Origin: a virus
Direction: 5' to 3' (one strand)
Virus record (IMG/VR): IMGVR_UViG_3300037847_002096
Coordinates: 3,121-23,954 of that record
DNA: 20,834 nucleotides
Below are positions 368 through 19,391 of the stretch, piece by piece. Position 1 is the first letter of the stretch; each line of letters starts with the position of its first letter. The notes under the pieces are model-generated. The model saw only the letters and a list, made by a program, of their open reading frames with translations, was not told where the DNA came from and did no database searches. The position numbers and the translations under genes are program-made.

Positions 368-1796
368 CTTCAGCCTCCGTCTCTGCTTCTGGCATTGTGA
401 CCTCTAATTCAGGCGCAGGCTCGGGTTCGGGCTGTTGCATCTCGATTAGGCCGCCGGTCTGCGTGGCCTCAATCTCCTCTTCAACGTCGAACTCATCGCC
501 CAATACCTCACCAGCAGACAGCTGGTTAAGCAGTGTTTCCTGCGTGATGGTGCCTGCGGTGTAAAGCTGCAGCAGTGCTTGTATTTCGTCCGGCTCAAGG
601 CGTGTAGCCAGGAAGTCGCGATTGATAAAGCTGCTGCCCGCCACAGGCTGTTGCATGTACTGCGCGTGAAAGCCCAAGCAGTTATCAATAAGGTCTTGCA
701 TCTGCTGAGCGATCACCATCATCGTGCTGTCGCCTTGGCTGCGATCGATGCGCTTGGCCTCTGCAGTCTCTGCGCTGAGCTTTTGACCCAGCACAGCGGC
801 CAGGCCTAGCTCATTGATCTGCTGCGCGATCTGATCAAGACGCTGGAACTGTGCGCTGTAGCTGTTACCGCTTGGCTCGATGTATTCCGCCCGTGCAGCT
901 TCAGGCAGTGCCATGGCTTCACCAGGCCCTGCGCTGATTTCTTCTGCTGACTGCGGGAACCCATAGATCGCCAGCATTGGCACAGCACTGATGTGTAGCT
1001 GGTTGTCCAGGTCGGATTGAACCTGATACGCCTTGAGATTCAACTCAGCAATGTCTGCCAGCGGTGGCCGCGACTCAAGAACATTGACGCGGTTGGAATA
1101 GGCAACAGCGAAAGGAATCTCGCTGAGGCTCGTCGTCCCTTCATCGACAAGAACAAAATCGCCTTTCTTGTCTTTCTGATGGATCTCAAACGCGCCAGGT
1201 GTTAACACCCGTACCTGCTGCACCTGCTTCTCGCCGTAAAGGCCATCGGGCACGGTGATGGTCTCCATCAGCCGCAGCTGGGTTAGCTGTTGCTTGCCTT
1301 CCTTGATTTCAGAGCGCCATCCCAAGATGTCCCGTGGCGTGTACTGCGTCCAATACGGGCGACCATTCTCGCCTGCCTTTGGCGCATCGACAAGAACACC
1401 AACGTGGCCATACCTTATGCAGCGTTTGGCTGTCTCGAAAGTCCAGACGTTTAGGTCATTGCCTTGCAGATCTACGTCAAAAAGCTGCTCAGTAACAACA
1501 TCGCTAACGTCTTCAAGCCGCACAGGTTTGCGGGTCAACATGCCCGCCAACATGCGTTCAAGCCTGACGTAATAAGGCGCAAGCGTTGAACGCATTAACC
1601 TGTTGTCATAAGCCTCGTCTAGTTCTCTTGGTTCTTGCGGAAGATATTTTCTATGCGCCTTGCGCACGGAATACGTTCCACCTTGCAGAGCCTCTATCAA
1701 CAACCAATGCGGCTCCATGTTGACGTAAGCCGTGTTCGGGCTTTCCACCGTCGTCACGTTGCCAACACGTTGGCGACCAGAAAAGCCTGAGTACAC
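351..1796 (-). CDS. Portal protein, DUF4055-like
   Basis: About 481 residues, the usual size for a DUF4055-type portal, the ring at one capsid vertex through which DNA is packaged and the tail attaches. Early residues contain HWLLIEALQGGTYSVRKA followed by KYLP, which fits the opening of this family. The C-terminus is an acidic Glu/Pro-rich tail. The annotated start is a GTG at 1796. Another GTG thirteen codons in (VTTVESPNTAY) is a fair alternative. The gene lies directly downstream of terL with a 26-base gap, the standard terS-terL-portal order. The role is strongly supported by context; the exact family is from recognition by eye. Confidence 0.85.
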   Translation of the reverse strand: MYSGFSGRQRVGNVTTVESPNTAYVNMEPHWLLIEALQGGTYSVRKAHRKYLPQEPRELDEAYDNRLMRSTLAPYYVRLERMLAGMLTRKPVRLEDVSDVVTEQLFDVDLQGNDLNVWTFETAKRCIRYGHVGVLVDAPKAGENGRPYWTQYTPRDILGWRSEIKEGKQQLTQLRLMETITVPDGLYGEKQVQQVRVLTPGAFEIHQKDKKGDFVLVDEGTTSLSEIPFAVAYSNRVNVLESRPPLADIAELNLKAYQVQSDLDNQLHISAVPMLAIYGFPQSAEEISAGPGEAMALPEAARAEYIEPSGNSYSAQFQRLDQIAQQINELGLAAVLGQKLSAETAEAKRIDRSQGDSTMMVIAQQMQDLIDNCLGFHAQYMQQPVAGSSFINRDFLATRLEPDEIQALLQLYTAGTITQETLLNQLSAGEVLGDEFDVEEEIEATQTGGLIEMQQPEPEPAPELEVTMPEAETEAEDELAG

Positions 1797-1822
1797 AGCT
1801 AAATCCCACCCATGCGATCAGT

Positions 1823-3172
1823 TTAGTAAAGCCTGATTCCAGTACCACGACCAGCGCGGGCATGGAGCATTGAGAAATCTCTGTAGACGAGATAGCCAAG
1901 CGCATCATTCATATGGTCATAGCCCGCATCTTTATCGGGGTCTCCTGCCTCGCTGTAGCTCTGCAGCTCCAAACATTCGATGGTCCGTTTGCAGCTAGCG
2001 GCAACCTGCAGCCTTACTTGACCTTTCCCATTCTCCAACAAAGCCTGAACAGAAGCCACCCGATCACGGATGGGAGGGTTGGCCTTCGGTGATTGATTGC
2101 TAAACCCATAAGACTCCAAGATCTGGATGTCAGTGCGCGAGGCGTTCGTGCTTCTGTTTCCGCCTGATGCGTCAGGGTAGATGTAAACCGGGCGTCCATC
2201 AGCTCGGCGTTGTATTTCTTGGGCCATGGCGTCGGTGTCATGTGCGCCGCTGATCTCATCGATCAGGAGAAGTTTTTCTCCAAGACGGACACCGATGACT
2301 GCGTTTGAGTTGCCGACGTTGAAGTCGCAGCCGACGCGTAGAGGTTCGCGGCTTACGTCTGGGATGTCGGTTATGACGTGCTTTGCCCGGTCGAAACGGT
2401 CATAGACCTGACCAGTTGTGAGTGAAACAAACTCGCCCTGCAGGTACGCCTTAAGAAGGCTGGGATCGTAGTTTGCCTCAAGTCGCTCGATGAAGTCTTG
2501 GGGCAGCCAAGGATTGTCTGCCGTGCGCATCTTAATCAACTTTCTGTCTGTGCGCTGTTGCGCATCCTCTGAGCCAAAGGTGTTCCACATCCAGCGGAAT
2601 CCTTCAGGTGTTGAGGCAGCACCGAACTGACGCACGTTGCCAGAGCGAAGACGACCAAGAATCTTGGGAAACGCCTTCTCAGCAATAGATGGCGCAACGG
2701 TATCGATTTCATCAGCCAGCACCCAAGCAAGGTTCAAGCCGATGATGCGTGACCAGTTTTCAAAACTGCGGCAAATTATTTTCGTATCACCGCCAGGCAG
2801 GTGGAGAACGTATTCAGCCAAAGGTGATGCCCTGAAGCTGTACGGGATGTCGTACTGCTCTAGAAACGCCTCAAAGTCGTTTTGCCAAATGTCACGGATC
2901 AAAGGGCCTGTGGGCTCCATGACGCAACCAACAAAGCCTTGATTGGCGATAGCAAGGGCTAAAGCCTTGGCGCACAAGCTTCTGGTTTTACCAGCCCCAT
3001 AGCCCGCAGAAAGCCCAATGATCTGCGTCGATTGATCGTCTACAAAGGCAAGCTGACCTGGGTGCAGATCAGCCTTGATGCGTTGAACCAAGCCGTCCGC
3101 TGATTCTTGCGTTGGCGGCGTGGCGAAGGCTAGGAGCGGCTCTGAGTCTGTTAGCCCTGTTAACAGTGGCAT
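1823..3172 (-). CDS. terL: Terminase large subunit (packaging ATPase and nuclease)
   Basis: 449 residues with the two expected domains. The ATPase part shows Walker A GYGAGKT (residues 57-63), Walker B VLADEID (151-157) and a coupling motif AASTP (185-189). The C-terminal RNase H-like nuclease shows GCDFNVG (D283), IYPDASGG (D334) and DHMNDALGYLVYR (D419, D423) as metal-binding acidic residues. It pumps and cuts concatemeric phage DNA at the portal during head filling. The start ATG shares one base with the stop of the small subunit (TGATG), so the two are translationally coupled. Confidence 0.96.
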   Translation of the reverse strand: MPLLTGLTDSEPLLAFATPPTQESADGLVQRIKADLHPGQLAFVDDQSTQIIGLSAGYGAGKTRSLCAKALALAIANQGFVGCVMEPTGPLIRDIWQNDFEAFLEQYDIPYSFRASPLAEYVLHLPGGDTKIICRSFENWSRIIGLNLAWVLADEIDTVAPSIAEKAFPKILGRLRSGNVRQFGAASTPEGFRWMWNTFGSEDAQQRTDRKLIKMRTADNPWLPQDFIERLEANYDPSLLKAYLQGEFVSLTTGQVYDRFDRAKHVITDIPDVSREPLRVGCDFNVGNSNAVIGVRLGEKLLLIDEISGAHDTDAMAQEIQRRADGRPVYIYPDASGGNRSTNASRTDIQILESYGFSNQSPKANPPIRDRVASVQALLENGKGQVRLQVAASCKRTIECLELQSYSEAGDPDKDAGYDHMNDALGYLVYRDFSMLHARAGRGTGIRLY

Positions 3173-3489
3173 CAGATGTCGAAGCGCAGCAGCTTGGCCT
3201 GAGTCTCCAGGGCCTTGATTGCCAACTGCAGATTGTCGTCCTTCCCAGCCTTCTGCTCATATTTAACAAGGCGTGCGATTGCAGCAGCTAGCCATTCAGG
3301 ACGCTCGATCTCTGCATCCTGTTGGATTAACTGGCGGGCACGTTGCATGTAGATGTCAGCAGTCCTTTCGCTGACATCCCACTGCTCCGCCGCATATTGC
3401 AAAATCTCAAACCGAGAATATGACTTAATTAGTAAGCCATAAACAGTTCGGACCCTGCTTTCAATTTCTGCGTTCGTACTTTTCGCCAT
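3172..3489 (-). CDS. terS: Terminase small subunit
   Basis: 105 residues immediately upstream of terL and overlapping it by one base. Residues about 25-52 (SRFEILQYAAEQWDVSERTA, then IYMQRAR) form a helix-turn-helix of the type used by small terminases to recognise the packaging site. The C-terminal half is helical (LAIKALETQAKLLRFDI), consistent with oligomerisation and contact with the large subunit. It is likely to select phage DNA and start packaging. Identification rests on the HTH, size and the terS-terL arrangement. Confidence 0.85.
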   Translation of the reverse strand: MAKSTNAEIESRVRTVYGLLIKSYSRFEILQYAAEQWDVSERTADIYMQRARQLIQQDAEIERPEWLAAAIARLVKYEQKAGKDDNLQLAIKALETQAKLLRFDI

Positions 3490-3525
3490 GCCCTGAAGTT
3501 AACAGGGGTTTGGGGCAAGGGTAGC

Positions 3526-3705
3526 TCAGAAGCGTTCGGGTTGATGTGCTTTGCGCCAATAGTCGGTGAGTCGAACAACCTTGTCTTCAACAAGGTGCAT
3601 CGAGCTGACTGTTGCCTTGAACTCCCCGACCAAGACTTGGATTGCCCCATCTGGGAGGTTGCGGATTTTGGGATTTGGCGTAGGCAGCTCTGAGGCGTCG
3701 CTCAT
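3526..3705 (-). CDS. Small hypothetical protein
   Basis: 59 residues if started at the ATG at 3705 (MSDASELPTPNPKIRNLPDG). The same frame is open far upstream, but the upstream residues look like random coding. Candidate upstream ATGs at 3729 and 3975 are therefore less likely. The protein is soluble, has a Pro-rich N-terminus and then a probable beta/helix segment (AIQVLVGEFKATV). It overlaps another plausible open frame (3587-3781) over more than 100 bases, so one of the two may be false or the pair may reflect a frameshift. Function unknown. Confidence 0.55.
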   Translation of the reverse strand: MSDASELPTPNPKIRNLPDGAIQVLVGEFKATVSSMHLVEDKVVRLTDYWRKAHQPERF

Positions 3706-3781
3706 AGTTGAGGAATGCGCGTAGTTCATTGTGGCGCTGAAGTTGGCGAAGGTCGTGGTCTTGAATGCGAATAAGTTCCAT
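3587..3781 (-). CDS. Possible small protein in an overlapping frame
   Basis: Open frame of 64 residues from the ATG at 3781. The N-terminal half (MELIRIQDHDLRQLQRHNEL, then RAFLNYERRLRAAYA) looks like a genuine amphipathic helical protein, rich in Arg and Leu. The C-terminal part (PPRWGNPSLGRG and beyond) overlaps the other small gene in a different frame and looks much less protein-like. Possibilities are a real gene with a large overlap, a gene whose true stop was lost, or a product continued by a frameshift into the neighbouring frame. No function can be assigned. Confidence 0.4.
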   Translation of the reverse strand: MELIRIQDHDLRQLQRHNELRAFLNYERRLRAAYAKSQNPQPPRWGNPSLGRGVQGNSQLDAPC

Positions 3782-3910
3782 GTGTTGAATTGTGGTGTCG
3801 GGGTATGGATCAGGCCTGAAGTCCTGCCCTGCCTTTCCCTGCACCCAGGGTGTTGTATAGCTTTCAGCCTGCTAAAGGAAGAGTCAGGCATCAGGCTCCC
3901 CGACGTGTGA

Positions 3911-4114
3911 TTAAGGCCAGTCACTGCGAACAGCAGCAAGAACAGCCGCAAGTCCTTTTTGAGGCGGCTGCTCATTGACGGCTAGCTGAATAGCCAATTC
4001 CAATAAAGCCCGGGAGGTAGCAGTACGACTCATGCCTGAAGCCTTAGCCAATTTTTTCAAACGGTCGTGATGCCAATCATCCAAACGGATGCCGACCTGC
4101 ATGGCACAAGTCAT
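3911..4114 (-). CDS. Ribbon-helix-helix DNA-binding protein
   Basis: 67 residues. The pattern MQVGIRLDDWHHDRLKKLAK, then ASGMSRTATSRALLELAIQLA, is a complete RHH (CopG/Arc/MetJ-like) fold: a short beta strand that reads the DNA major groove as a dimer, a first helix, the GMS-type turn, and a second helix. Such proteins are small repressors or plasmid/phage copy regulators. Its ATG shares a base with the upstream stop (TGATG). A likely phage regulator; its operator is not identifiable here. Confidence 0.78.
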   Translation of the reverse strand: MTCAMQVGIRLDDWHHDRLKKLAKASGMSRTATSRALLELAIQLAVNEQPPQKGLAAVLAAVRSDWP

Positions 4115-4389
4115 CAGTCGTACTCCTCCACGGTGTAAGAGAAGCCGCAGTCCTTGGCGTCTGCAATGAGCTGGTCACGCTCATGCTCTGTGTAGGCCCA
4201 TTCAGTCCATTCGAGCTTGTCGTTGAGCTTGGCCTCGACGTAGTAGCGGGTAGCAGGTTCCATGGTTTTCAGCTTTAGAAGGTTTGTGGCCTCAAGCTGA
4301 TCTTGGTGCTGCTGGAAGGACTCGAACAGATCGAGCATGTAATTGTGATAGTCCATCAGGCGGGGATCTCTCCAACGCCAATATGGCAT
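4114..4389 (-). CDS. Hypothetical protein
   Basis: 91 residues, soluble, acidic toward the C-terminus and rich in aromatic residues (MPYWRW start, EWTEWAYTEHERDQLIADAK near the end). A second start at the ATG at 4356 (MDYHNYMLDLF) is plausible. The segment RYYVEAKLNDKLEWTEWAYT followed by a helix resembles a small beta-alpha module, but I recognise no family. It lies between two RHH genes. A perfect hairpin sits just upstream of its start and carries the stop codon of the preceding gene. Confidence 0.65.
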   Translation of the reverse strand: MPYWRWRDPRLMDYHNYMLDLFESFQQHQDQLEATNLLKLKTMEPATRYYVEAKLNDKLEWTEWAYTEHERDQLIADAKDCGFSYTVEEYD

Positions 4390-4394
4390 ACCAG

Positions 4395-4416
4395 GCAGAG
4401 GGCGTCAACCCTCTGC
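4395..4416 (-). repeat. Perfect 8-bp inverted repeat at a gene junction
   Basis: On the minus strand GCAGAGGG, loop TTGACG, CCCTCTGC. The TGA stop of the RHH gene at 4405-4671 lies in the loop, and the next start codon (4389) is 5 bases past the stem. There is no T-run, so it is not a standard terminator. It may affect mRNA processing or downstream initiation. Confidence 0.5.
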
Positions 4417-4671
4417 TGCTAACGCGCAAATGACAGTACATATAATCGGCTCCAGTTGATGCCTGGGGATTCCGCCGTACTGGCGGCTAACAGCAGTGAT
4501 GGCGCGATCAATGCAGTCACGGCCGCTGCCCAGCGATGCGACGCGCTGTGGGTACAGCACACGCTCACGGATCAGTTCTTTGCGGGACATGCCATGAGCG
4601 GCTGCTTCCATGTTCAGCCTGTTGCGTTCCTCAGGCGTGGCGTCAAATTCAATGCGGCTTAAGTGGCTCAT
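4405..4671 (-). CDS. Ribbon-helix-helix-like protein
   Basis: 88 residues. The N-terminal half (SRIEFDATPEERNRLNMEAA, then AHGMSRKELIRERVL) fits a strand-helix-turn-helix RHH pattern similar to those in plasmid mobilisation accessory and phage regulatory proteins. The C-terminal half (residues about 45-88) is an additional helical segment ending ICTVICALAAEG. A DNA-binding, dimeric regulator is likely. The ATG shares a base with the stop of the upstream gene, placing it in the same operon. Its targets are unknown. Confidence 0.7.
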   Translation of the reverse strand: MSHLSRIEFDATPEERNRLNMEAAAHGMSRKELIRERVLYPQRVASLGSGRDCIDRAITAVSRQYGGIPRHQLEPIICTVICALAAEG

Positions 4672-4898
4672 CAGAAGTCGAAGGGTTCAGGTTCAGGTTT
4701 TGTGGATGGTGCTAGGTCTCGCGGGCTTGGCCCGGCTTCAACGTGCACAGCCTTGGGTTCATCCCGCAAAAGGTTGCGGTAGTTCTTGCTGATGCAGCCG
4801 GGCGGCGGCGTGTCGAGATCTTCCAGCGTCCAGTAACCCTTGGCGATGCCATCGCGCAAGGTCTTGATGGTGCTGGTGATGTCCTGTAATGGGTTCAT
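4671..4898 (-). CDS. Small hypothetical protein
   Basis: 75 residues from the ATG at 4898 (MNPLQDITSTIKTLRDGIAK); a TTG three codons further upstream (4907) would overlap the preceding gene. The first half is probably helical and contains KGYWTLEDLDTPPPGCISKN. The second half is Pro-rich, acidic and probably disordered (STKPEPEPFDF). No membrane segment or known domain is visible. Operon position between RHH genes and a nuclease-like gene is all that hints at function. Confidence 0.7.
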   Translation of the reverse strand: MNPLQDITSTIKTLRDGIAKGYWTLEDLDTPPPGCISKNYRNLLRDEPKAVHVEAGPSPRDLAPSTKPEPEPFDF

Positions 4899-5790: not shown

Positions 5791-6081
5791 TCAGTAAGAA
5801 CGAGAGGACTTGTATTCGGCGTCAGCCGCAGGATGCAGGACGAACCTGCCGGGCATGATGCCTTCAACAGATGGGCAGTAGGTGCAGTAGCGACCCAGGT
5901 GATCAAAACGGCCCATGCAGTGCGGAGCAGCAGGCCGCACGCGGCCATCCATTTGATTGAGGGCAGATTCCATGTCACCTGCACGGATGGCCTTGAAATC
6001 AGGCATGGCCCCCTCTTTGGCTTGCATGGGCACGACGGCAAAAACAAAGTGCTCGGCGGCTTCGGGTTCGAACAGCTTCAT
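5791..6081 (-). CDS. Hypothetical protein with a possible zinc-binding cluster
   Basis: 96 residues from the ATG at 6081, which shares one base with the stop of the upstream replication-like gene (TGATG). The same frame is open further upstream but that part overlaps the neighbour and is unlikely to be translated. Near the middle, H54-C55 and then C66-x2-C69 (HCMGRFDHLGRYCTYC) could form a small zinc site. The N-terminus (HFVFAVVPMQAK) is strand-like. It might assist the adjacent replication protein, but that is inferred from position only. Confidence 0.68.
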   Translation of the reverse strand: MKLFEPEAAEHFVFAVVPMQAKEGAMPDFKAIRAGDMESALNQMDGRVRPAAPHCMGRFDHLGRYCTYCPSVEGIMPGRFVLHPAADAEYKSSRSY

Positions 6082-6809
6082 CAGAGGAACATGGATGACT
6101 TGGTGGGCGCTGGGGCGTTGTCTTCGAGGTAGACGGCATAGCACTCATCACGGAGCCAACGAAAGCAATCAGGCAGCGGCGAGGCAAACTCCCCGACACC
6201 TTGCCTTGATCGGATGTCCTCAATGGCACCGTCAATGGCACGCATTAGGTCTTCGGGTTGTAACTCGTCAGGGACAAGCTGGCCCCAAAGCTGCACGGCC
6301 TTGGGTTTGGACTGGCCGTTGGCGCGATGGCGGCAGCCCTGATACCGCTTCCAAAAGGCCTCGAACTCAGGGGTGCCCTTGGTCTTCTTAGCGCGTGGTT
6401 TACGCGCCTTTTCGACCTTAATTTCAGTTTTAACACCTTTATATATGTTTTTTTCGTGGTCAGGTTCTTGGGCAGAAGACTGAACAGCCGTTGTCTGGGG
6501 CGGAGGTAGCTGCTGCTCTTGAGCAGTTTCTTCTGCGCTTTCAGGTTGCTTCAGCGAAGGCTTATGACCTGTGAGAGGGCGGAGGTTACCTTGTTGTGGT
6601 CCCGCACCGACGTGGTACGCGGACAGACTAGCGAACCCGTCAAGGCCTTGAATCTTTGAATCGATCAGATCCCTGATCACAGTTGACTTGTTGCGAAATG
6701 GTCTGACCTGCGACGACAGCCAAACCAGCTGTTCCTCCGTGATTCTGACGTTGATGTGTGGCACAAACGGTTGACGTTGCTTCGCAAAGGTGCCACGTTT
6801 GCGACGCAT
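6081..6809 (-). CDS. Replication-initiator-like protein with N-terminal RHH domain
   Basis: 242 residues from the ATG at 6809 (a TTG two codons upstream is less likely). Residues about 18-52 (HINVRITEEQLVWLSSQV, then NKSTVIRDLIDSKI) are an RHH DNA-binding domain. A long Gln/Pro/Ala-rich linker follows. The C-terminal domain has FEAFWKRY, then KPKAVQLWGQL and DCFRWLRDECYAVYLED. This order of FW-x2-Y, a Lys/Ala helix, W and a final aromatic helix resembles the C-terminus of phage replication organisers such as O-type proteins. Likely job: bind an origin and recruit a helicase or loader. The call is inference from motif order. It is divergent to the nuclease gene. Confidence 0.6.
   Translation of the reverse strand: MRRKRGTFAKQRQPFVPHINVRITEEQLVWLSSQVRPFRNKSTVIRDLIDSKIQGLDGFASLSAYHVGAGPQQGNLRPLTGHKPSLKQPESAEETAQEQQLPPPQTTAVQSSAQEPDHEKNIYKGVKTEIKVEKARKPRAKKTKGTPEFEAFWKRYQGCRHRANGQSKPKAVQLWGQLVPDELQPEDLMRAIDGAIEDIRSRQGVGEFASPLPDCFRWLRDECYAVYLEDNAPAPTKSSMFL
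6391..6454. other. Candidate replication origin inside the initiator-like gene
   Basis: A perfect inverted repeat GCGCGT-GGTTT-ACGCGC (6391-6407) is followed, 10 bases on, by a 37-base tract (6418-6454) in which 31 bases are A or T, including TATATAT and a run of seven T. It lies in the linker-coding part of a replication-like gene, as the lambda origin lies within O. Two short direct repeats (GGGCGGAGGT at 6498 and 6577; TCAGGTT at 6460 and 6541) sit beside it. This is an inference. Confidence 0.3.
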
Positions 6810-7467
6810 ACGCAACCCATTTGTGAGACAACCGCTAGATCCCGTGCCAGGGCTGGAGTTTTACCGCCTGCAGCACAAATACAGGCTGAACGGGGAATGG
6901 CTGCCGTACAACGTCAGCACCGTGCTTTCGTTCGACATGTCACCCTCTCAACGGGCTGCAATCGAACGCACAAAAGACGGCCCTGATGGCTGGGCTATTA
7001 GAGGTCAAACAATCCACCGTGTGCTGTGTGATGAGTTCTTGCGCGGCGAAGGTTCGATCTATGACGAGAAATGGGCACCATGGGTAGAGCCGCTGCTTGA
7101 GCAACCGCTGTTCAAAGGTGTTGAGACACTGGCAACTGAATATCCGGTGTGCGACAAGATCAAGCGAATTGGTGGCAGCTTGGATTTTTTGCTGGCTACG
7201 ACAGATCCCAACGATAAGAGGATTATTTTGGGAGACCTCAAGACGGTTTCGTCTAAAAAGGGAGTCTCCAGCAGACGCCCAGCAACTGCCCAGCTCCAGG
7301 CTTACAGGAGCTTCCTTGCGGTGCATCACCCTTCGTTGGTGGTGACAGATCTGGTGACAGTGGTTTGCGGCCCTGAACGCACGCGGATCATCAACTCAGA
7401 TCCTGAAGGGTGGCAGGAGTGGGAGGACGCATGGGGACGTTTCAACGCGACCACCCCCGATTTCTGA
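6790..7467 (+). CDS. PD-(D/E)XK (Cas4/RecB-like) exonuclease
   Basis: 225 residues from a GTG at 6790; GTGs at 6823 and 6844 are alternatives that would avoid overlap with the divergent gene. Key residues in order are H76 (GQTIHRVL), E117, D132 (GGSLDFLL), D149 and K151 (LGDLKT) and QLQAYRSFL (168-176). This is the H...D...D-x-K...Q-x-x-Y layout of RecB-family nucleases. It is probably a 5'-to-3' exonuclease that resects DNA for the annealing protein encoded downstream (9352-10056). It is the first gene of the rightward operon. Confidence 0.85.
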   Translation: MPRLRRIRNPFVRQPLDPVPGLEFYRLQHKYRLNGEWLPYNVSTVLSFDMSPSQRAAIERTKDGPDGWAIRGQTIHRVLCDEFLRGEGSIYDEKWAPWVEPLLEQPLFKGVETLATEYPVCDKIKRIGGSLDFLLATTDPNDKRIILGDLKTVSSKKGVSSRRPATAQLQAYRSFLAVHHPSLVVTDLVTVVCGPERTRIINSDPEGWQEWEDAWGRFNATTPDF

Positions 7468-7473
7468 TTTTTG

Positions 7474-7710
7474 ATGAAGTGCCCTGAATGCGGATGCTCT
7501 TGGATCAGCGTCCTTGAATCACGTCACACGAGCGACAAAGCCATTAGCCGTCGCAGACAGTGCAAAGGTTGCGACCATGTTTGGGCTACTGCTGAGGTGC
7601 CTGTGCCAAAGGGCGAGTGGGGTTACAAGCCTGTTGAGCGATTTAACGGCCAATCCAAGGCTGAGTTTGGAGTGCATCGCGGGATGCTTGAGCGGCTGCA
7701 GTCTGCGTGA
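7474..7710 (+). CDS. NrdR-type zinc-ribbon protein lacking the ATP cone
   Basis: 78 residues from the ATG at 7474; a TTG just before it is possible. The N-terminus MKCPECG...SRRRQCKGCDHVW (C3, C6, C30, C33) closely follows the zinc ribbon of the NrdR repressor of ribonucleotide reductase genes, including the SR...RRRxC pattern. NrdR normally continues with an ATP-cone domain; here only about 40 unrelated residues follow. The protein could be a DNA-binding factor or a zinc-ribbon accessory to the recombination operon. It follows the nuclease with a 6-base gap. Confidence 0.72.
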   Translation: MKCPECGCSWISVLESRHTSDKAISRRRQCKGCDHVWATAEVPVPKGEWGYKPVERFNGQSKAEFGVHRGMLERLQSA

Positions 7711-8080: not shown

Positions 8081-8709
8081 GAAGAACTCTTAAGGAGTTT
8101 GAAGGCCAGCTGGTTGCCTTCAGTGGCTGGGAAACAGGCTCACGTCATAATCGGACTTGGGTCTGTGTTTCCAAGCCTTACGTCTGCATTTGGGACCGAA
8201 ACGACTCAGTGCAGACAGCTGTCAAAAGAAAAGGCGGCTATCGGTTTGACCATCTATGGCTTTCAGGGGACGACGCAAAAAACCCGCCGCAAGAACTCAA
8301 GATGTTCGGAAAAATTGGTGGCGTTGGCATTGTCCGCAAGTACAAACGCAGTGACGGCACATTTGATTACACCGTCAAGTCGCCTAGCGGCCGTTACTCA
8401 ATTGAGGAATTCCTTGATCTATACAACGAAGACTTTTACGAAAGAACGCAGCAGCAAAGGCTTGTCATGCTCCGAAACGCTTTGCAGTTAGTTGGCGAGC
8501 ATCAAAGAGGTTCAGATGACGTCATCTATGGAATAGCAAAGTCTGTTTCTAGCTTCAAAGAAGAGCTTTTAGAGCAGGAGCTTGAGATAAGTCGATCCAT
8601 AGCTGCAACTGAATCAGCGTTACAGACAGCAACGATGAACGGTAAATGCAAATCCCTTAACGTCTTGGGGTTTCCTGCGCGTCCTAGCGCAAAATCCAAA
8701 GGCTTTTGA
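8077..8709 (+). CDS. Hypothetical protein with C-terminal coiled region
   Basis: 210 residues from the ATG at 8077, overlapping the preceding stop as ATGA. The N-terminal half (residues 1-110) is rich in Trp, Gly and strands (LVAFSGWETGSRHNRTWVCV; GGYRFDHLWLSGDD), like a small beta-rich domain. The second half is helical (residues about 110-190; RQQRLVMLRNALQLVG-like helix and FKEELLEQELEISRSIAATE). No catalytic motif is apparent. Context is the recombination/replication operon. I do not recognise it. Confidence 0.75.
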   Translation: MRRTLKEFEGQLVAFSGWETGSRHNRTWVCVSKPYVCIWDRNDSVQTAVKRKGGYRFDHLWLSGDDAKNPPQELKMFGKIGGVGIVRKYKRSDGTFDYTVKSPSGRYSIEEFLDLYNEDFYERTQQQRLVMLRNALQLVGEHQRGSDDVIYGIAKSVSSFKEELLEQELEISRSIAATESALQTATMNGKCKSLNVLGFPARPSAKSKGF

Positions 8710-8755
8710 TCTTGGGCGGCATCCGCGTAAGTCCCATCATCCCAACATCTTGCAA

Positions 8756-8962
8756 ATGAAAAACGTTCAAATCGTCCTTGATCAAGGCCGAGCTGACAAG
8801 CTTGCCAAGATTTCAGAGGCCACTAAAGGCAACATGACCAACGTCTCAATCGCTGGTGAATTCATTGAGTTTGAACAGCCTAAACTCAGTGCCTCAAGAC
8901 TTGCTCAGGCTCTCCTGAACAGCGCCATTGACCGAGCTTTCAGCCAGTTACCCCAGCAGTAA
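8756..8962 (+). CDS. RHH-like small protein with an insertion
   Basis: 68 residues from the ATG at 8756 (a TTG at 8750 adds two). NVQIVLDQGRADKLAKISEA suggests an RHH strand and first helix. SASRLAQALLNSAIDRAF suggests the second helix, but about 20 residues (including GEFIEFEQPKL) intervene, longer than normal. If the fold is right it is a variant DNA-binding protein; if not, it is simply a small helical protein. Its end overlaps the resolvase start by 35 bases. Confidence 0.6.
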   Translation: MKNVQIVLDQGRADKLAKISEATKGNMTNVSIAGEFIEFEQPKLSASRLAQALLNSAIDRAFSQLPQQ

Positions 8963-9407
8963 CTCATTCACCTTCACTGTGCTTGGAAAGCCTGCCCCGC
9001 AAGGCAGCAAAACCTATAAAGGCAGGGGCGTCATGGTTGATTCGTGCAAACGACTTGGAGCATGGCGTCAGCTTGTCCGCAAGGCTGCCAAGGACTTGCG
9101 CCCTTGCAATTGGTATGCCAGGCTAGATGCGCCTATTTGCATCTCAGTCGTTTTTGTCTTTGCCAGGGCAAACGATCAATACGTCAACAACACTCCTGGC
9201 CCTGACCGACTAAAGCCTGATGCGCCTCAGCACTGCACAAAGCGCATTGGAGACGTCGATAAACTTTGCCGCGCCATTTTGGACAGCCTTTCTGAAGGCA
9301 TTGTCTACAACGACGACGCACAAGTGATCGACCTCATTGCACACAAACGTTATGCCAATGACAGAGAACAACCCTGCGCCATCATCACCGTCACAGCTCT
9401 TTCCTAA
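8928..9407 (+). CDS. rusA: RusA-family Holliday junction resolvase
   Basis: 159 residues. GKPAPQGSK (20-28) is the typical RusA opening, and GDVDKLCRAILDSL (109-122) followed by VYNDDAQVIDL (127-136) carries the conserved acidic residues (D109, D111, D129/D130) that bind the catalytic metal. RusA dimers cut four-way junctions formed during recombination and help trim branched phage DNA before packaging. The start is a TTG at 8928, because no ATG exists ahead of the conserved region; the overlap with the previous gene is therefore 35 bases. Confidence 0.92.
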   Translation: MTELSASYPSSNSFTFTVLGKPAPQGSKTYKGRGVMVDSCKRLGAWRQLVRKAAKDLRPCNWYARLDAPICISVVFVFARANDQYVNNTPGPDRLKPDAPQHCTKRIGDVDKLCRAILDSLSEGIVYNDDAQVIDLIAHKRYANDREQPCAIITVTALS

Positions 9408-10056
9408 CCTTGGCGATGTCATCACCATCGATGATGTCAGTCAAAAAGGAACCGGCAGCTACAAGGCTGACTACGTGAATTGGTGCCGCACCATGCACCT
9501 GCTACATGTTCACGCTCCAGGCTGGCAGTTTGCCTTAGCCAATGCTCCCGGCGGTGGTCATGTCTGGAAAGCACCGAATGAAACCGGCTATGTCGTCGGT
9601 TGTTTCATCGGCCCTGATCTGCAAACAACGCCGCACTTTCCGCAGGCGATCATGGACAACCGAAACAACCCGGTTGCCTTCGACAAGATCAGCGCTCGTG
9701 ATCTGACGGATTCACATCGGCGCTGCCTTTGCACTGCAGCAGCTGCACACTTTGGGCTTGCTTGGCAGTTGTGGGCACGCGAAGAGGTTGAAAATCCTCA
9801 CCGCGAAGAGAAGAAGGCAAAGCCTGAAGCTGGGCCATCTGTTGCCGGTGTGTCCAAAGAGGAGCAGCCCCTTTCGGATAGCGAACGCAGCTTCTTACTG
9901 CAGTGGATTGGCGACATGCCCCAGGACAATCGCGAGGCTTTCTGTAAGGCGTTCCGCTCAAAGTTTAATCTGGCAGCCACCGCTAAGGTTGCTCCGGCAA
10001 TCACAAGTAAAAAGCACGAGGCTTGGATTCAAGCCGTCATGAATGAGTATGCCTGA
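9352..10056 (+). CDS. Single-strand annealing protein, Sak3/DUF1071-like
   Basis: About 234 residues from the ATG at 9352; ATG 9358 and TTG 9337 are also possible. Matching elements are an early YVNWCRTMHLL in place of the family's YLSWA, then PQAIMDNRNNPVAF and DSHRRCLCTAAAAHFGLAWQ followed by LWAREE. These correspond to the PVMDxRNK ... RCLxKAxAxxGLGLxLYAGED core of DUF1071 (Sak3) recombinases. The protein would coat and anneal single strands resected by the exonuclease of the same operon. The Lys/Glu-rich C-terminus may be a separate helical part. It overlaps rusA at its start. Confidence 0.78.
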   Translation: MPMTENNPAPSSPSQLFPNLGDVITIDDVSQKGTGSYKADYVNWCRTMHLLHVHAPGWQFALANAPGGGHVWKAPNETGYVVGCFIGPDLQTTPHFPQAIMDNRNNPVAFDKISARDLTDSHRRCLCTAAAAHFGLAWQLWAREEVENPHREEKKAKPEAGPSVAGVSKEEQPLSDSERSFLLQWIGDMPQDNREAFCKAFRSKFNLAATAKVAPAITSKKHEAWIQAVMNEYA

Positions 10057-10228
10057 TGAAAAAACCACGCAAGCCAAGCAAGACGACAAACGTCGTGCTC
10101 AGCACTTTCAAGTTCGGCTGGACAAACAGCTAGCCGAACAGCTGCAGCACTACGCCGAAAAACGCCACCAAGGCGTAATCAACGCTGCGCTGCAAACCAT
10201 CATCTCCAAATTCTTCAACGGAAAGTAA
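10043..10228 (+). CDS. Ribbon-helix-helix-like small protein
   Basis: 61 residues from the ATG at 10043, overlapping the annealase end; a second ATG at 10049 is possible. After a charged N-terminus comes HFQVRLDKQLAEQLQHYAEK and then HQGVINAALQTIISKFF, which fits the strand-helix-helix RHH pattern with a minimal turn. Probably a dimeric DNA-binding protein that regulates this operon or helps replication. The next gene starts directly after its stop (TAAATG). Confidence 0.65.
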   Translation: MSMPDEKTTQAKQDDKRRAQHFQVRLDKQLAEQLQHYAEKRHQGVINAALQTIISKFFNGK

Positions 10229-17687: not shown

Positions 17688-19391
17688 TTAGCTAAAGATT
17701 AGCGCAATAGCAGTCGATTGAGCACGGGACATGCCACCGCCACTACCACCGCCACCGGAGGACTCAAATACTGCCAGAGCAAAGTCAGCATCAACCATTG
17801 ACAGGTTGCTACTACGTCTGATCGATACCGTAAATCCAGTAGTCGCTACGCTGGAATATCCCAACATCTCGATAGCACTGAATTCAGTCCCGAGAGAGCC
17901 AGTCAGCTGGATGGAATATCCAGCCGAAGACATTGAGGTAGTAAACAGAACCTCATATACACCAGTATTTGACGTTCTAGTAACAGACGCAATGTTGGAA
18001 CTGCCGTTCAGCGTACAGGTGCCGGTTGTACTCTGACTAGCGACATTAGCCCAGGCATCGGCGCCACCACCACCACCGCCACTACCACCAGATCCATTCG
18101 ATGCAGCCGTGAGTCGGCCTTGTGCGTCAACAGTGATGTTTGCCGACGTGTAACTGCCAGCCGTTACGGTCGTGTCTGCAAGCTTTGCAGCAGTAACAAC
18201 GTCATCGTCGATGGTGAACGTTGCACCGCTGTTGGAAACGGTGATATCGCCTTTATCACCATCCGAAAGGCTGCCACCAGACTGAGCCACCCATGCGTAG
18301 TCAGATCCGTTCCAGCTCAATACTTGACCAGAGCTAGCCCCAGAAACGTTTAAGTGAACGTCAACATCGCTGTTTGCATAGGCCGTAGTTTGATCAACCC
18401 AAGAAAGTGCTCCAGAGCCGTTAGTTTTTAAAACTTGGTTGGCTGATCCGTCTGTGGCTGGAAGCGTAAAAGTAATGTTGCCGCTGAAGTCAGCATGAGC
18501 AGGCGCTTTTAATGCCGCATAATGCGCATTGCTTGACTCACAGTAAAGACGAACTTCAGACTGCGTCCCGGTGTTTTTGATGCCAAGGATGCCACTGGAA
18601 ATGAACTTTGAGTTCATGTCCAAGTCGCCACCAAGCTGGGGCGTTGTATCTAAAACAATGTCTGTGCCACCATTGGCACCGTCTGCACCATCCGCTCCAT
18701 CGGCGCCTGCAGGGCCTGTTGCACCAGTAGCGCCTGTTGCACCAGTAGCGCCTGTTGGCCCTTGCGGCCCTGTTGCGCCTGTGTCGCCTTTGGGGATTGA
18801 AAAATCAAAAACTGCAGCAGCAGAAGTACCGCTATTAGTAACTGTTGCACTTGATCCAGCGGCCCCAGTGCTTACCGTCCCAACGGCGATAGTTGCAGCG
18901 GCACCATCTGCACCATCTGTACCGTCGGCACCATCTGCACCTGCAGCACCTGCAGCACCTGTTGCACCTGTTGCACCTGTTGCACCTTGTGGTCCTGTAG
19001 CGCCAGTAGCACCGGTTGCACCAGTTGCACCTTGAGGAATAGAAAAATCAAAAACTGCAGCAGCGGAACTTCCGCTATTGGTGACTGTTGCGCTACTGCC
19101 TGCAGCACCTGTCGTTACCGTTCCAACCGCAATAGTGGCCGCAGCACCATCTGCACCATCTGCGCCTGCTGGACCTGTAGCACCAGTAGCGCCAGTAGCG
19201 CCAGCAGGGCCTGTAGGGCCTGTAGGGCCTGTAGCACCAGTTGCACCTGTAGCGCCAGTTGGGCCAGTCGCACCCCGCGTTCCGGTAGTCAGCTCAACCG
19301 TTGTTGTTTTTGGTGTCTCAACAACAGTCGTGCTGTTCGCTGTCGTCACTTCGACAGTGTTTGCCTGCGTCGTGACGTTTACGGTGGTCAT
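17688..19391 (-). CDS. Collagen-like tail fibre / receptor-binding protein
   Basis: 567 residues. The short N-terminal tail-attachment part (1-39) is Thr/Val-rich. Three G-x-y blocks (about residues 40-83, 121-163, 202-241) alternate with two copies of a 37-residue beta module (84-120 and 165-201; core SSATVTNSG and [10 protein letters not shown]). The C-terminal half (from about 245) is Ser/Thr/Gly-rich with WVDQ and [11 protein letters not shown] motifs, then a Gly-rich linker (residues 433-443), and ends with a small domain and a Gly/Ser tail. Such fibres form trimers. Its start overlaps the upstream gene in ATGA. Confidence 0.88.
18789..18899 (-). repeat. Interblock module, copy 2
   Basis: Codes [15 protein letters not shown] then [20 protein letters not shown] and PK. 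It is nearly identical in protein to the copy at 19032-19142, with a period of 243 bases. Confidence 0.8.
19032..19142 (-). repeat. Interblock module, copy 1
   Basis: Codes [15 protein letters not shown] then [20 protein letters not shown] and PQ. It lies between the first and second GXY blocks and is the upstream copy of the 37-residue module pair. Confidence 0.8.

Follow-up and report, generated by a model that had tools for sequence, protein, structure and literature searches.

A replication origin of the lambda type is very probably embedded in an initiator gene of the 20,834-base stretch of viral DNA analysed here (the window), which is part of a virus record of 23,954 bases. We consider it likely that this gene specifies an initiator resembling lambda O and belongs to a marine cyanophage-like siphovirus, that the DNA encoding its linker is the origin and that an N-terminal ribbon-helix-helix (RHH) domain reads this origin, as proposed in the original prediction. 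That prediction is partly supported, being right in outline and wrong in some details.

The likely source is a marine cyanophage of the S-H1/KBS-S-2A group because the terminase encoded in the window is 79% identical to that of Synechococcus phage S-H1 and 78% identical to that of KBS-S-2A. Of the window proteins that were searched, none was identified as a helicase, primase or polymerase, consistent with reliance on the host replisome. A search of bacterial genomes with the alignment of the initiator C-terminal domain (A3) found no prophage hosts. Other genes of the window include a tail-fibre-like protein with collagen-like repeats (17688-19391) and a small protein that has an NrdR-type zinc ribbon (7471-7710; Pfam E = 2.6e-12) but lacks the remainder of NrdR. 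S-H1 has another replication module at the corresponding position: ahead of its terminase (593-4737) lie an annotated beta clamp and a large unannotated protein with primase- and helicase-like features by reading, and no initiator of this kind.

The initiator gene (6081-6815, minus strand) is an open reading frame (ORF) of 244 amino acids counted from its first start, TTG at 6815, with alternative starts at ATG 6809 and GTG 6764. Its 5' end overlaps that of a divergent exonuclease ORF (6790-6815), leaving no space for an ordinary intergenic promoter; the true start codons are uncertain. The protein matches PHROG 270 (replication initiation protein) over residues 100-234 (E = 2e-5) and, weakly, PHROG 1701 (DnaD-like helicase loader; E = 3e-3), and its C-terminus shares 36% identity with the corresponding protein, annotated for replication initiation, of Prochlorococcus phage MED4-184 / P-HS2. 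The C-terminal replisome-organiser domain (6084-6404, minus strand) is supported by an alignment (A3), AlphaFold and Foldseek. A model built from 47 relatives reached a pLDDT of 82, and its closest named viral models in BFVD (Foldseek) are replisome organisers and replication proteins. The proposal that the C-terminus is a replication organiser was thus borne out by PHROG 270 and by these folds. Checking structure and homology gave family and fold matches among viral replication initiators, while Foldseek and profile searches of the PDB returned no convincing solved structure. Judged by family membership and modelled fold, the domain belongs to the phage replication initiators and replisome organisers. 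In one relative (L029, 2608-3143) the initiator gene is broken: most of the linker is missing and translation meets a stop codon shortly past the RHH domain.

Relatives of the gene (37) were fetched from viral contigs and aligned by codon, and summary figures were calculated across 33 of them. The linker-coding DNA (about 6420-6625) is under strong synonymous-site constraint. The ratio of observed to expected synonymous change is 1.2-1.7 in the C-terminal domain and about 1 over a large part of the RHH domain, compared with 0.17-0.35 in most of 6430-6600. Similarly, pS (Nei-Gojobori) is 0.19 in 6543-6599 and 0.185 in 6420-6479, against 0.59 in the C-terminal domain and 0.44 in the RHH domain, while pN/pS is 0.77 and 1.52 in the same two blocks and 0.32 in the C-terminal domain. 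The block at 6420-6479 (minus strand), where the sliding synonymous ratio falls to 0.17, forms the AT-rich side of the element. Fast amino-acid change combined with frozen synonymous sites is unlike the outcome of recent common descent or of protein constraint. An overlapping gene was rejected as the cause of the constraint because none of the alternative frames stays open throughout the relatives, and the element yielded no Rfam family, structured RNA, tRNA or promoter-like site.

The AT tract, a candidate unwinding element (6418-6454, no strand), has 31 A/T in 37 bases, a count that no other 37-base stretch of the window reaches. It lies on the C-terminal side of the candidate binding sites and occupies the same place in all relatives, with 29-32 A/T per 37 bases. 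Over 48 bases the A/T fraction is 0.738, compared with 0.630 (sd 0.007) under a synonymous-codon null that reached this value in 0/1000 cases. The tract had been proposed as part of the origin and persists in every relative even under a frame-shifted protein: it is kept across the alleles EKNIYKG and EKKHIVV, which differ by a frame shift, and is read as EKNIYKGVKTEIKVE or EKKHIVVKNEIKVE depending on a one-base length change. At GAAAAAAAC (6448-6456 in the window, and in relatives), A7/A8 length alleles produce a brief frame shift that is compensated downstream; the A AAA AAC of the window in this region is also a -1 frameshift-type heptamer.

The strongest elements, a core palindrome and the footprint next to it, were absent from the original prediction. 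The core palindrome TCCGCGTACCACGTCGGTGCGGGA (6600-6623, minus strand), a candidate initiator-binding site, is a 24-base imperfect inverted repeat that occurs once in the window, directly after the RHH domain and about 190 bases past the initiator start, inside the gene. The terms palindrome and binding site are preferred to hairpin here because its hairpin stability in the window is no better than that of shuffles (z = -0.95); some forms of the core can make a hairpin. Its 21-base core GCGTACNNNGTCGGTGCGGGA was found in 56 viral contigs, in every case inside an initiator-like gene (56/56). As the contigs were retrieved with an exact DNA pattern, the unbiased check relied on loci identified from protein similarity alone. 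In all 44 distinct loci of this kind the codons TAC, GTC, GGT, GCG and GGA do not vary, even though GCG accounts for only 18% and GGA for 11% of the family's codon usage. In one relative (L182) the core word is translated in a different frame, and the protein then resumes its usual frame. Together with the synonymous profile and pS, the invariant codons uphold the claim that the linker DNA is constrained beyond its coding role. In form B cassettes the left palindrome arm is missing. Bacterial genomes gave 11 scattered matches to the core pattern, in unrelated genomes and at about chance level.

Two further footprints lie between the palindrome and the AT tract. The first, AAGGTAACCTCCGCCCTCTCACAGGT (6567-6592, minus strand), combines the palindrome AGGTNACCT with CACAGGT, has a synonymous ratio of about 0.3 (pS 0.19) and occurs in 14 contigs; AGGTAACC-type sequence is also present in two distant RHH members (L069 and L132). 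The second, CCTTCGCTGAAGCAACCT (6543-6560, minus strand), was recognised in the alignment and carries the half-site ACCT. Across linkers, ACCT/AGGT occurs 112 times against 63 under the synonymous null, which reached the observed count in 0/500 cases. Repeated iterons were not found in window-type linkers, where no 8-mer occurs more than twice; the window linker has one palindrome and ACCT/AGGT half-sites instead of several iterons. A second conserved word, about GGGGATGGTGTCGGGAGGGAGTCTGAGGGAACCCCTAGG (protein GDGVGRESEGTPRK), was seen in relatives L174-L227, 105-171 bases past the core; it belongs to linkers of relatives with different C-terminal domains and was not seen in the window.

Some parts of the original prediction fared less well. 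The hairpin GCGCGT-N5-ACGCGC (6391-6407, no strand) and both pairs of short direct repeats are present, as is the AT tract. The hairpin folds as DNA at -7.6 kcal/mol (z = -3.6) and sits where synonymous change runs at the average rate. The 10-base repeat GGGCGGAGGT has copies at 6498-6507 and 6577-6586 (plus strand, 79 apart), the second inside the conserved footprint 6567-6592, and the 7-base repeat TCAGGTT starts at 6460 and 6541 (81 apart). As origin parts, both the hairpin and the repeats were rejected for want of conservation among 34 genes: 10/34 have a perfect hairpin and 1/34 has both copies of the 10-base repeat, so that both features look incidental. The alignment of homologous loci, which was to show whether AT tract and repeats persist, therefore retains the former and drops the 10-base repeat. 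A switch in GC skew had also been expected near the gene. No origin-type minimum appears there in the window or in four longer relatives. The skew peaks locally about 1 kb upstream of the initiator gene, where gene direction changes, and is accordingly not diagnostic.

The putative origin reader is the N-terminal domain (6642-6764, minus strand). Its 41 residues, searched as a family profile (A2), match the RHH domain of NikR (1q5v) over the whole domain, and this is the best PDB match. The proposed RHH N-terminus is borne out as RHH-like, weakly by sequence (E = 0.0074): Pfam RHH models gave nothing above cutoff with single N-terminal sequences, and no winged-helix or HTH match was found in the N-terminus of the window's initiator. 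The full-length model is poor (pLDDT 49), yet it has two helices in the expected order (monomer). Genetic linkage makes it plausible that the RHH domain is the origin binder. Further small RHH- or Arc-like proteins are encoded in the window at 3911-4114, 4405-4671, 8750-8962 and 10043-10228, and the phage seems rich in this fold.

Comparison of relatives reveals exchange at the joints of this gene. The core precedes at least three C-terminal domains, namely the FEAFWKRYQ type of the window, the IRDFWRIKGGSKGD type and the LPEFWAVKKGTRSE type. The latter two gave no PHROG match, so a replication role for them would be by analogy. When relatives were chosen by the third C-terminal domain alone (the core count adds three via the second), 12 RHH members carried the core and 23 carried a palindrome GGGAGN-..-N'CTCCC, while winged-helix members carried neither; in these class counts the automatic sorting misplaced one fragment (L269), and a degenerate core and form B are present in L242 and L304. 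Compensatory changes mark the second palindrome, with A-T, C-G, T-A and G-C all found at one pair, and its covariation is 0.181 against a shuffled mean of 0.056 (reached in 0/500 cases; at most 0.056 when slid). The winged-helix sister members match O-like initiators and HTH_36. They have the same C-terminal domain and, at the same place in the linker, short iterons in 3-5 copies; an 8-mer occurs at least three times in 22/27 winged-helix linkers. One such linker (L100) contains a 16-base near-palindrome resembling AGGTCAAAAACGACCT five times; three AACAAGAACCCAT-like repeats follow these palindromic iterons and may be an unwinding element that has a periodicity of its own. Two cultured phages, KBS-S-2A and MED4-184, have repeated linker DNA followed by AT-rich sequence. 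Iterons and AT-rich DNA placed in this way match the layout reported for lambda (PMC6022878, PMC7466680). From this pattern, we consider it an evenly balanced proposition that an RHH domain and a short palindromic cassette of origin DNA, encoded together in the first part of a single gene, make up an origin-plus-reader module that can be exchanged, is mounted on at least three replisome-recruiting domains and competes with modules of winged helix plus iterons at the same place.

The same exchanges raise the question of whether the RHH domain or another factor reads the core. The linker could be the origin while a host protein or another phage protein binds the palindrome, the RHH domain only regulating the gene or adding affinity. 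In relatives L018-L020 the RHH domain is exchanged for a different RHH and the downstream linker is kept, in L175 and L196 the core sits behind a winged-helix-like N-terminus, form B lacks one arm, and the same RHH type occurs with either the core or the other palindrome cassette. Against this, among loci chosen by C-terminal domain alone the core accompanies an RHH domain in 12 and a winged helix in 0 (Fisher p about 0.005), and winged-helix members have multi-copy iterons of their own. We judge a different binder unlikely.

Less likely still is that the conserved DNA is a regulatory element, either an autorepressor operator or an RNA signal, and not an origin. In its favour, RHH proteins are commonly autorepressors, and some forms of the palindrome can fold into a hairpin. 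The position well inside the gene and beside the conserved AT tract argues against such an element, as do the shuffle-level stability of the window's form, the lack of a promoter-like site or Rfam family in the element, and the lambda-like iterons that hold the same place in sister genes. More improbable again is a reading of the conserved blocks as recombination junctions whose similarity is maintained by frequent phage exchange, with short homology serving module swapping. Mosaicism is strong at exactly these joints and the window encodes a Sak-type annealing protein (9337-10056), but recent exchange does not produce a pN/pS of 0.8-1.5 in the blocks, and the compensatory palindrome changes and a DNA word maintained independently of frame also speak against it. 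Ordinary protein-coding conservation or chance has a negligible share, since some linker residues (GAG, RPLTG) are kept too but the rare invariant codons, the frame change in L182 and the synonymous profile contradict it.

The favoured reading remains an origin embedded in the initiator gene and read by its RHH domain; that this DNA acts as an origin and that the RHH domain binds it are both predictions. First, a dimer of the N-terminal RHH domain would bind the palindrome and the ACCT/AGGT half-sites (about 6543-6623). The resulting nucleoprotein complex would then strain the adjoining AT tract at 6418-6454, which would open as in lambda. Finally, the C-terminal domain, homologous to known initiators, would recruit a helicase or loader and hence the host replisome. 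The presence of a single palindrome, the uninformative GC skew and the weak sequence identity of the RHH domain leave some doubt about this scheme. In such a gene, the protein-coding sequence and the DNA site evolve in the same bases, and the reader and its site seem to be replaced by another fold while the recruiting end is kept. Initiator specificity becomes testable by simple swaps of domain and cassette, and the conserved sequence offers a signature for locating origins in uncultured cyanophage-like viruses.

The closest functional parallel is lambda. The N-terminal DNA-binding domain of lambda O is of the winged-helix type. Two defining features of lambda O and ori-lambda, a winged-helix reader and repeated iterons (four in lambda), are replaced in the window by an RHH-like domain and by one palindromic cassette with half-sites. 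The proposed parallel holds in the order of parts, which is DNA-binding domain, DNA-constrained element, AT tract and C-terminal domain: in lambda the origin lies in the middle of gene O, whose product has a DNA-binding N-terminus, a linker and a partner-binding C-terminus, and ori-lambda has four iterons with an AT-rich tract beside the binding sites (PMC6022878, PMC7466680). Among cyanophages, the initiators of MED4-184 / P-HS2 and MED4-117 have a homologous C-terminal domain (35-36%), a gene that adjoins RusA upstream of the terminase genes, and repeats and an AT-rich tract in the linker. They differ in having an HTH_36 N-terminus, not RHH, and the core palindrome is absent from MED4-184. 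In MED4-117 (8544-9312) the annotation divides the initiator between the ORFs CPWG_00027 and CPWG_00026, apparently because of a frame shift when compared with MED4-184. KBS-S-2A, a phage of Synechococcus WH7803, belongs to the same phage group as the window, and its initiator-like gene CPKG_00028 has three CCCCCAAAAGGTGG-type iterons in the linker; this gene differs in its winged-helix-like N-terminus and its C-terminal domain of the LPEFWAVKKGTRSE type.

To our knowledge, the known embedded-origin initiators read their origins through winged-helix-type domains. The open-access titles and abstracts listed in literature searches describe no RHH-type initiator, which is weak evidence of novelty, and an RHH initiator that reads its own embedded origin appears to be undescribed. 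By its sequence, the N-terminus appears to resemble NikR, Arc and CopG in its strand-helix-helix order and would likely form a palindrome-reading dimer. Those proteins are repressors, whereas the domain in the window is fused to a replication domain and has its candidate site inside its own gene.
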